A program made the translations under genes and the position numbers. Source: Symbiobacterium thermophilum IAM 14863 (GTDB lineage: Bacteria > Bacillota > Sulfobacillia > Symbiobacteriales > Symbiobacteriaceae). Taken from it: a stretch of 64,000 nt of DNA. Position 1 is the stretch's first letter; each line of letters starts with the position of its first letter. This document shows, one piece after another, positions 24,972-29,050 of the stretch. The notes below the pieces were generated by a model, which saw nothing but the letters and a program-made list of their open reading frames with translations, had not been told where the DNA came from and made no database searches. Where the stretch lies: positions 1,736,001 to 1,800,000 of the forward strand of contig NC_006177.1 in assembly GCF_000009905.1 (NCBI RefSeq). Direction: 5' to 3'.

Positions 24972-26291
24972 TTATGAAGACTGGCCCGTGCGCTTGCGGC
25001 GAAGCCGCCGGAGCCGGTGTTGCACCTCCTGGTACTCGCGCTGGGCTCCGGCACCGCCCAGCGACCGGCGCCGGTCGACCACCTCCAGCGCCCGGACGGT
25101 CAGGCTCTCCGCCAGATCGTACCGGCGGGTGACGTGCTCGTGGTACTTGGCCAGTTCGATGTACGGAAAGAGCGTCAGACCGCCGGAGGCGATCATCTGC
25201 TCCCAGATGGCCACCGCCTGCGGGTGCGCCCGGGCCCGCTTGTACGCGAAGGAGAGGCGGCGGAGCAGGGCGGTCTCGGAGACCGCCGCGATGCCCCGTT
25301 GCCGGGCAGCCTCGTAACACGTGAGGGCCTCGGCCAGCTGTCCCCGCGCCTCAAACAGGCGCCCCAGGTGATAGAGGTCGTCTCCGCAGAGCAGTTCGCC
25401 GTCGGGCGTGGGCCCCAGCGGGTCAGCGGCCATCTGGCCCATCCAGCCCGCCAGCGAGGCCAGGGAGAGGATGTCCAACCGGTTGTGTTCCACCACCTGG
25501 ACCAGGGCGGAGGCGTCGCCGGAACGCAGGTAATCGAAATAGAGGGCCGGAATGCGGGAACCCGGCACGTCCCCTGTGCGGACGACGCCCAGGATGGCCC
25601 GCTCCAGGTCCTGCAACGTACATCCGTCGAGCCGGGCGCTCCAGAGCCGCCGGGCCGGGTGGAGCAGGTCGAGGTGCGGCGCCCCGCCGAGCGGCGGCCT
25701 GCGGCGGGCCAGGCGGAACCGGGTCTCCAGCAGCGGCCAGTCAAAGGACTTGCCGTTGAAGGAGACCAGGCACGTGCACGGCGCGAGGTCGGCGGCGATG
25801 GCGGCGAGCATGGCCTCCTCCTCGGGGAAGTCCCGCAGGAAGTACTGCCGCACGACGAACTCGTCCCCCTGGTAGAAGCCCACCCCGACCAGGAAGGCGT
25901 AGGTGCCGGTGCCGCCGGCCAGCCCCGTGGTCTCGGTGTCGACGAAGGCGGCGCGCCGCGGGTCGAAGGCAGGCGGCACCCGCCCCACCAGCGGCCAGAC
26001 CGTGGCGGGCAGCTGCAGCGGCCATCCCAGGGGCAGCGGCCCCCGGCGGAAATCCAGGGGATAGCGCCGTTCCAGCCGGAACGCAGGCCCGGCTTCCGTG
26101 GCCACCAGGTGGCCCTCCAGCCCGGGGCAGAGCGAAGCCGGCTGGAGGGCGGAGGGCGCCCCGGCCGGGGCCCGGGTGGGGTCACCGGAGCTCGCCTGTG
26201 ACGCGGGAGCCGCCGGAGAGGCCGCCCTTTCCGCGGCGGCCCGGGCGGCCCCGGCCGCCTTCAGCAGCCGCAGCCGCTCGCGCACGTTCAC
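24972..26291 (-). CDS. mrfB: RNase H-like exonuclease MrfB (YprB)
   Basis: This is a predicted 3'-5' exonuclease that works with helicase MrfA in repair of mitomycin-type DNA damage, as known in Bacillus. The protein has 439 residues: an Ala/Pro-rich N terminus, then a DEDD fold with FVDTETTGLAGGTGTYAFLV (Exo I), LVSFNGKSFDWPLLETRF (Exo II) and VVEHNRLDILSLASL (Exo III), and a C-terminal TPR-like helical region (about 310-430). The start is GTG 26291, with GGGAGGA upstream. It lies 20 bp after the selenoprotein gene and belongs to the same run as mrfA. Confidence 0.88.
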   Translation of the reverse strand: MNVRERLRLLKAAGAARAAAERAASPAAPASQASSGDPTRAPAGAPSALQPASLCPGLEGHLVATEAGPAFRLERRYPLDFRRGPLPLGWPLQLPATVWPLVGRVPPAFDPRRAAFVDTETTGLAGGTGTYAFLVGVGFYQGDEFVVRQYFLRDFPEEEAMLAAIAADLAPCTCLVSFNGKSFDWPLLETRFRLARRRPPLGGAPHLDLLHPARRLWSARLDGCTLQDLERAILGVVRTGDVPGSRIPALYFDYLRSGDASALVQVVEHNRLDILSLASLAGWMGQMAADPLGPTPDGELLCGDDLYHLGRLFEARGQLAEALTCYEAARQRGIAAVSETALLRRLSFAYKRARAHPQAVAIWEQMIASGGLTLFPYIELAKYHEHVTRRYDLAESLTVRALEVVDRRRSLGGAGAQREYQEVQHRLRRLRRKRTGQSS

Positions 26292-26311
26292 TCCGCATTC
26301 CTCCCGTGTGA

Positions 26312-26542
26312 TCAGGACCGGATCAACTGCTGCACCTCGCCCGGTTCGGGGAACCGGCGCAGCCGTTTCTTGGAAAAGACCAGCCTCCCGTCCGCCACGA
26401 TCTCGAACACGCCTCCCCTGGAGGGGACGAGTTCGACGGCCGCATCCGGGAACTGGGTGCGCAGTTCCGCCGCCAGCCTGGCGGCCCGCTCATCAAACCG
26501 TCATACCGTGCAGTACTCGATGGTCACCCGCTGGACCGTCAT
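26312..26542 (-). CDS. SelW-like (Rdx family) selenoprotein, UGA read as selenocysteine
   Basis: This 76-residue thioredoxin-fold redox protein has a CxxU motif. On the minus strand, ATG 26542 is eight bases after TGGAGG. The translation runs MTVQRVTIEYCTV, then an in-frame TGA (26501-26503, residue 14), then RFDERAARLAAELRTQFPDA and continues through GGVFEIVADGRLVFSKK and RRFPEPGEV to TGA at 26312. The stop falls exactly where this family has Sec or Cys (C11-x-x-U14), and the flanking sequence stays family-like. The RNA just after the UGA forms CCGCCA-GGC-TGGCGG, with its loop 22 bases downstream, matching the bacterial SECIS pattern of a small hairpin with G early in the loop. A stop-based gene finder would miss it. 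It sits between mrfA and mrfB. Confidence 0.87.
26466..26484 (-). promoter_or_regulatory. bSECIS-like hairpin of the selW-like gene
   Basis: On the minus strand the six-base-pair stem CCGCCA/TGGCGG with loop GGC begins 16 bases after the in-frame TGA. The loop starts with GG, as expected for SelB recognition in bacteria. Confidence 0.6.
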
Positions 26543-26663
26543 GGCTGTCGCCTCCAGGGTGGCGGTGTGGAGTTGCGGGAATCCGCGGCGGGCGCCTGTA
26601 TGCCGCCTGCGGTGACCGGGCGGTGGTGTCCGGAGGCGCGGCAGCCGTCCGCCGCAGGGGGAA

Positions 26664-28940
26664 TCACTGCAGGTTGCGGTGCGCCAGGGCCCGCTCCAGG
26701 ATCCTGATCACCCCGGCCTTGGCGCCTGTGAGGTTGCCCGTCTCCGCCGCGGGGCCGACGCAGGCGGGGCAGCCGCGCTCGCAGCCGCAGGCGCGGACCC
26801 GCTCATAGGCGGTGGCGAGGAGCTCGGCATGCAGGTCGTAGCACTTCTCCCCGAGGCCGATTCCCGCCGGGTAGGCGTCGTAGAGGTAGATGGTCGGCGC
26901 CTCCTCGAAGGGGGAGCGCACCTGGATCACCGACCGCAGGTCGGCCGGGTCGCACATCAGGAACAGCGGCGCCAGCCCCCGGAGGAGATGGCCGAGGCCG
27001 GCGAGGGCCGACTGCAGTTCGTCCTGCGTGAACCCCTCGCACATGGACTCGGGCAGCGAAAGCCAGTAGGCCGCAGTGTGCATCTGGTACTCGGGCAGGT
27101 GGATCTCACCCCAGCCCAGGTTCTCGTGGGTGTGCAGCCGGATCTTTTTAAAGATCGTCGCCTTCGCGGCCGTCATCACCTCGCCGAAGCGGACCCGCAG
27201 GCCGAGTTCCTCCTTTTCCTTCAGCACGTCCAGCGGCTTGATGGTGACGGCCAGGTTGGCGTCGGTGTAGTACTCCACGTCGACCTTGTGCACGTATGCC
27301 TTCTTCTCGTCCCAGTCCAGCCGGTCCACGTGATACTGTTCCGCCTGGTGCAGGTAGATCGCGTTGGTGTGGACCATGGTCATCGCACCCAACTGATCGA
27401 TCTCGCCGAGAACGCGAGTCTGGCCCGGCACGGACTGGTCGATGATGACCACGTTCTCCGCGTCGACGCTGCGCAGGCTGATGCTTTCCGCCGGGAAGTT
27501 CTCGGCAGACCAGTGGTACTTGCCGCCGACCTTGCGGAGGATTCCTTCCTCCTCCAGGTAGTCCAGGATCTCCCCGGTGGTCTCCACCCCGAACTTCTCG
27601 CCTTCCAGGAAGGGCAGCTCGAAGGCGGCGCACTTCAGGTGGCTGACGAGGATCAGGAGGTTGTCGGGGTTGATCAGGGCCTGCTCCGGGGCACGCTCAA
27701 AGAAGAACTCGGGGTGTTCCATGATGTACTGGTCCAGCGGGGAGGCCGATCCCACCAGCACCGTGAGGGAGGTGGAGGCCCGCCGCCCGGCCCGGCCCGC
27801 CTGCTGCCAGGCCGACGCCACCGTGCCGGGGTAGCCCGTCATCACGCAGGCCTCCAGCTGGCCGATGTCGATGCCCAGCTCCAACGCATTCGTGGAGACG
27901 ACGCCGAGGATCCTGCCCTCCCGCAGACCGGCCTCGATCTGGCGCCGCTCCAGGGGCCGGTAGCCGCCCCGGTAGCCCATCACCCGGTGGGCCTTGTTGG
28001 GGCCGACCCGCTCCTTCAGGTAGGTGGTGAGCACCTCCACGTTGTTCCGGCTCCGGGCGAAGACGATGGTCTGGATGTCGTTCTGCAGCAGCTTGCCCGC
28101 CACCCGGGCGGAGGCCTTGACCACCGGCTCCCGGACGCCGTCCCGGCCGACCGCCGGCGGGTTGAGGAAGATGAAGTGCTTCTCGCCGCGGGGCGCGCCG
28201 TTCTGGTCGATCAGCCGGACGGGCTGCTCGATGAGCCGCTCGGCCAGCTCCTGCGGGTTGGCGATGGTGGCGGAGGAACAGAGGAAGACGGGCCGGCTGC
28301 CGTAGAAATCACAGATGCGGCGCAGCCGGCGCATCAGGTTGGCGAGGTGCGAGCCGAAGACCCCGCGGTACTGGTGCAGTTCGTCGATGACCACGTACCG
28401 CAGGTTCTCGAAGAGCTTCACCCACTTGGTGTGGTGCGGCAGTACCCCGGTGTGCAGCATGTCGGGGTTGGTGATGACGATATGGCCCGCCTGGCGGCAG
28501 ACCTGGCGCACCTGGGGCGGGGTGTCGCCGTCGTACACGTAGGACTTGATCTCCGCCCCCAGCCGGTCGGCCAGCGACTTCACCTCCGCCACCTGGTCCT
28601 GAGCCAGGGCCTTGGTGGGGAAGAGGTACAGCGCCCGGGCTGCGGGCTCGTGCAGGATCGTGTTGAGCACCGGCAGGTTGTAGCACATGGACTTGCCGGA
28701 GGCGGTGGGGGTCACCACCACCGTGTTCTGGCCGGCCAGGGCGGCCGCGATGGCCTCTGCCTGGTGGGTGTACAGCCGGTGGATGCCCCGCTCCTTCAGG
28801 GCGGCGACGAGGCGCGGATCGAGCGCCGCCGGCCAGTCCGCGTATTGGGCGGGAGCCGGCGGCAGCGTCTGCCAGTGGACGATGTTGGGCCCGATGGCCG
28901 GGTCGCTGCGAAGCTGATCGAGGAACTGTTCGAGGTTCAT
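26664..28940 (-). CDS. mrfA: DEAD/DEAH-type helicase MrfA (YprA)
   Basis: This superfamily 2 DNA helicase acts in excision of mitomycin-type adducts and crosslinks in Bacillus. The protein has 758 residues. The N-terminal ATPase domain has TPTASGKSMCYNLP (Walker A) and YVVIDELHQYRGVFG (DExH box). The second domain has VVSTNALELGIDIGQLEACV, followed by QQAGRAGRR. The C-terminal DUF1998 region ends with the Cys cluster CGCERGCPACVGP, a metal site. ATG 28940 is six bases after GGGAGGT; an upstream in-frame start lacks this. It is divergent from bshA and heads the mrfA-selW-mrfB-deacetylase cluster. Confidence 0.93.
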   Translation of the reverse strand: MNLEQFLDQLRSDPAIGPNIVHWQTLPPAPAQYADWPAALDPRLVAALKERGIHRLYTHQAEAIAAALAGQNTVVVTPTASGKSMCYNLPVLNTILHEPAARALYLFPTKALAQDQVAEVKSLADRLGAEIKSYVYDGDTPPQVRQVCRQAGHIVITNPDMLHTGVLPHHTKWVKLFENLRYVVIDELHQYRGVFGSHLANLMRRLRRICDFYGSRPVFLCSSATIANPQELAERLIEQPVRLIDQNGAPRGEKHFIFLNPPAVGRDGVREPVVKASARVAGKLLQNDIQTIVFARSRNNVEVLTTYLKERVGPNKAHRVMGYRGGYRPLERRQIEAGLREGRILGVVSTNALELGIDIGQLEACVMTGYPGTVASAWQQAGRAGRRASTSLTVLVGSASPLDQYIMEHPEFFFERAPEQALINPDNLLILVSHLKCAAFELPFLEGEKFGVETTGEILDYLEEEGILRKVGGKYHWSAENFPAESISLRSVDAENVVIIDQSVPGQTRVLGEIDQLGAMTMVHTNAIYLHQAEQYHVDRLDWDEKKAYVHKVDVEYYTDANLAVTIKPLDVLKEKEELGLRVRFGEVMTAAKATIFKKIRLHTHENLGWGEIHLPEYQMHTAAYWLSLPESMCEGFTQDELQSALAGLGHLLRGLAPLFLMCDPADLRSVIQVRSPFEEAPTIYLYDAYPAGIGLGEKCYDLHAELLATAYERVRACGCERGCPACVGPAAETGNLTGAKAGVIRILERALAHRNLQ

Positions 28941-29050
28941 GCAGAGACCTCCCGGATATCCTCCGCGGAGTCGTACGCCTACATATTTCAGCGGTGCGGG
29001 GGTCAAACCCTGCAGCCCGCTCATCCCGCCGTGAATCGGAGGCGTGGCGC

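Follow-up and report, generated by a model that had tools for sequence, protein, structure and literature searches.

Does a reading frame interrupted by a TGA on the minus strand of the Symbiobacterium thermophilum genome encode a selenoprotein, or is it a damaged gene? The frame lies in a stretch of 64,000 nucleotides that was analysed as a whole (the window, to which positions without a further label refer). A first-pass annotation had described a 77-codon Rdx/SelW gene with a good ribosome binding site, a single internal stop falling exactly at the U of the CxxU motif and a small stem with a GGC loop about 22 bases past the UGA. These elements were found as follows:

26312..26542, minus strand: selW-like selenoprotein gene of 76 residues, from an ATG start to a TGA stop (Pfam and NCBIfam matches)
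26501..26503, minus strand: in-frame UGA, putative selenocysteine codon, codon 14, the U of CxxU (TGA conserved in relatives)
26551..26555, minus strand: ribosome binding site GGAGG, 8 nt before the ATG (direct reading)
26469..26485, minus strand: bSECIS-type hairpin GCCGCCA-GGC-UGGCGGC, 7 bp, 3-nt GGC loop starting 22 nt after the UGA (energy and covariation)

The 77 codons include the stop. Translation of 26542-26312 yields MTVQRVTIEYCTVURFDERAARLAAELRTQFPDAAVELVPSRGGVFEIVADGRLVFSKKRLRRFPEPGEVQQLIRS, followed by a TGA stop; the TGA at 26503-26501 is the sole stop within the frame and completes the motif C11-T-V-U14 (CTVU). The likeness to the family on both sides of the UGA, noted from the letters alone, is borne out by Pfam Rdx (PF10262), which matches with 6e-25 and 87.7 bits (cut-off 22.6) over positions 1-73 of 74, and by NCBIfam NF041051 (SelT/SelW/SelH family (seleno)protein; 95.3 bits, cut-off 88). 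TIGR02174 (CXXU_selWTH) scores 71.1 bits against a cut-off of 34.2. Among the solved structures, the Rdx proteins 2fa8 (3.5e-13), 3dex, 2oka and 2obk as well as Selenoprotein W 2npb (0.006) are matched at the level of sequence. The protein resembles the SelW-like bacterial selenoproteins covered by PF10262, NF041051 and TIGR02174 in its length, the N-terminal CxxU, the downstream bSECIS-type hairpin and the FSK...RFPE segment. In most relatives the U is followed by NY or GY and in the S. thermophilum protein by RF, a difference that does not matter.

In bacteria, selenocysteine is decoded by SelB, which together with Sec-tRNA(Sec) binds a hairpin and decodes the UGA. The locus almost certainly carries a selenoprotein gene of this kind, SelW-like and belonging to the Rdx family. 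The hairpin just behind the UGA would be recognised by SelB carrying Sec-tRNA(Sec), selenocysteine would be inserted at position 14, and the resulting small oxidoreductase would have a thioredoxin fold, CxxU as its active site and a predicted thiol/selenol redox role.

Such a gene implies that the host makes selenocysteine, and the absence of selB and selC had been named as an observation that would speak against it. Both are present in the complete genome: selB at G000:C1:1186139-1187998 with 379 bits (cut-off 242) and the tRNA-Sec with 71.4 bits and the anticodon TCA (UCA), along with selA (612 bits) and selD (380 bits). A region of at most 7 kb holds selA, selD and the tRNA-Sec together. 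The selD gene (G000:C1:2777528-2778457) has one in-frame TGA of its own, in the context TAKSG-TGA-GCK (a KSG-U-GCK site), so that the selenophosphate synthetase SelD is probably itself a selenoprotein; SelD is listed in PMC1794560.

The hairpin by itself would carry little weight. Folded alone it has an energy of -12.0 kcal/mol (z -2.75). According to the constraints published for bSECIS elements and quoted in PMC13188914, the loop has 3-9 nt with G in the first two positions and lies 16-37 nt after the UGA, the stem has 4-16 bp, and the energy is -7.5 kcal/mol or lower; the selW-like hairpin, with its GGC loop, 7 bp, 22 nt and -12.0 kcal/mol, lies within these limits. Stems of at least 7 bp at bSECIS distance, however, follow about 7% of the TGA triplets in the GC-rich window, and for this reason a lone hairpin of such a kind in GC-rich DNA is weak evidence. 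When the stretch was folded as 64 nt, the stem did form but the total energy was no better than that of shuffled sequences (z -0.2), and in a 45-nt fold of the window copy the minimum-energy structure was an alternative pairing. This preference for another pairing and the commonness of stems in GC-rich DNA were counted against the selenocysteine reading. The energy of the whole downstream stretch (z -0.2 and -0.8) was rejected as evidence for the hairpin, as was a looser test based on minimum free energy, which is unspecific since 38-39% of control stretches pass it.

The hairpin becomes convincing only through its conservation in homologues. In 43 distinct homologous stretches the helix is paired in 86% of the cells, compared with 74% after shuffling and 27-62% in controls slid by 1-3 columns. 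Both sides have changed in 28 cells, against a mean of 5.1 in shuffled sets, and the covariation score is 0.351 versus 0.125 for shuffled sets. None of 500 shuffles, which make no correction for relatedness, reached 0.351. In the alignment (A1) the types of double change are CG, UA and GC at columns 21-33, GC, CG and UA at columns 22-32, and CG, UA, UG and GC at columns 23-31. Eight homologues with Cys in place of the TGA form 1-5 of the seven helix pairs (seven of the eight form 1-3), whereas the TGA forms form 4-7. The helix is mostly lost in the Cys homologues, a comparison that is only supportive because these homologues, which are plasmid-borne, are also more distant in sequence.

Across columns 19-35 of the same alignment (window 26469-26485) the double changes shift the encoded residues in step (AA-x-LAA, AS-R-LEA, AL-R-VSD), as if the RNA hairpin dictated the protein sequence in the AAxLAA segment of SelW.

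A premature stop at codon 14 that truncates the frame is what would be seen if a Cys or Trp codon had mutated to TGA in a dead gene, or had been misread in sequencing, and it is the sole observation in favour of such an origin. If this were so, the stop should not be shared by relatives, and a stop that varies among them had been named beforehand as an argument against the gene. Instead, in a separate collection of 38 relatives drawn from other genomes, among them Gemmatimonadota, Acidobacteriota, Desulfobacterota, Actinomycetota and others, 37 have TGA at the identical codon; the remaining one, from Streptomyces ipomoeae, has TGC. Among 61 related genomes an Rdx gene occurs in 14, and all 16 full-length copies have one in-frame TGA. 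Across 154 genomes of the class, every full-length Rdx match likewise contains an in-frame TGA, one of them (in G096) two, and a few short or partial matches contain none. The same codon is thus TGA in dozens of species across phyla, including three of the genus. Past the stop the protein remains family-like, and a comparison of the codons after the TGA with those of two congeners revealed 15-24 synonymous changes against 15-22 replacements, a pattern indicative of coding. Because the TGA is conserved and is followed by this coding pattern, and with the selenocysteine machinery encoded in the genome, a pseudogene or sequencing error is as good as ruled out.

A live gene could also be translated by near-cognate suppression or by a Trp-reading tRNA, with no selenocysteine involved. 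Yet the residue aligned with the UGA is Cys in the only relative that lacks the TGA and in the plasmid-borne Cys homologues, a tRNA-Sec and selB are at hand, and a covarying hairpin occupies the bSECIS position, all of which make read-through of this kind very improbable. The distribution of selB favours the selenocysteine reading: of the 14 relatives that have an Rdx gene, 13 carry selB above the cut-off, compared with 40 of the 61 genomes overall. The exception (G006, loci L097 and L098) has a TGA-form selW and no selB above the cut-off in an assembly of 630 contigs rated 100% complete. The missing selB is probably an assembly gap; the genome was nevertheless counted against the selenocysteine reading.

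Two further Rdx genes deserve mention. The G096 gene with two in-frame TGA codons (G096:C166:8188-8406) possibly encodes two selenocysteines or is a defective copy. On the Thermomicrobium roseum plasmid NC_011961.1 (408167-408409; L107 101-343), the annotated start of the Rdx gene TRD_RS11105 lies past a TGA that is in frame and occupies the U position; the gene is probably a SelW-like selenoprotein gene shortened in the public annotation.

The SelW-like gene is real, but its novelty, and its description as hidden in the first-pass annotation, do not hold to the same degree. NF041051 was written for a "(seleno)protein", and in Zhang et al. 2006 (PMC1794560, Table 3) S. thermophilum is listed with 12 selenoproteins, of which one is SelW-like. 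That entry concerns the same species and has no coordinates in the main text, so it is identified by its uniqueness: since the 3,566,135-bp genome yields a single Rdx match, the selW-like gene, the entry should be this gene, unless another family definition entered into their count. The gene is already known, its family, mechanism and the gene itself having been described before. A comparable case is SelW of Campylobacter jejuni (CJnc60), a small gene missed by annotation, with a UGA read by tRNA-Sec and read-through documented by Ribo-seq and proteomics (PMC11955535). C. jejuni belongs to a different phylum and the two are likened here by description, not by sequence, although the name of NF041051 bears "Campy". 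With the family, the mechanism and the gene already described, the biological gain is little; the locus demonstrates that a true selenoprotein gene that is split by ordinary stop-codon rules can be spotted from raw sequence. Two small points are added here, namely that the hairpin has undergone compensatory change across phyla and that selW is placed within mrfAB.

The placement involves the two genes that flank selW:

26664..29024, minus strand: mrfA-like helicase (YprA family), upstream neighbour (Pfam DEAD, Helicase_C and MZB, the MrfA Zn-binding domain)
24972..26291, minus strand: mrfB-like exonuclease, downstream neighbour (Pfam RNase_H_2, 5e-43; best PDB match MrfB 8un9, 5.2e-36)

The mrfB-like gene begins 20 nt past the selW stop. 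The order mrfA, one or two copies of selW, mrfB was found in all three Symbiobacterium species examined (24972-29024 in the S. thermophilum window), and the longer order zntA-like, bshA (divergent), mrfA, selW, mrfB, pdaB-like recurs in both congeners. The position of selW between mrfA and mrfB in three species, with duplication in two, is mildly new. The duplicates are tandem copies, both with TGA (L085 6228-6773 in G001 and L086 5761-6302 in G002). S. thermophilum has one copy, which resembles the first of the two, and three-frame translation of the 121-bp gap before the gene revealed no remnant of a second selW. From the gene order in the three members of the genus one might propose that Symbiobacterium SelW is co-transcribed with MrfAB and works in DNA repair, for example, and speculatively, as a redox partner in the handling of agents that damage DNA once activated by reduction (mitomycin C is one), or in protecting the zinc site of MrfA. 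At the loci examined outside the genus the neighbours differ and no MrfA or MrfB match lies near selW. The tie to DNA repair is for this reason speculation, a functional link was not accepted from gene order, and a role in MrfAB repair is considered unlikely.

The divergent bshA gene, for bacillithiol synthesis, adjoins mrfA-selW-mrfB in the three Symbiobacterium species. Elsewhere in the S. thermophilum genome, the diaminopimelate dehydrogenase, through which the species was established, agrees in all of 299 residues with PDB entries 3WB9, 3WBB and 3WBF, the last of which is the diaminopimelate dehydrogenase of Symbiobacterium thermophilum (PMC7424261).
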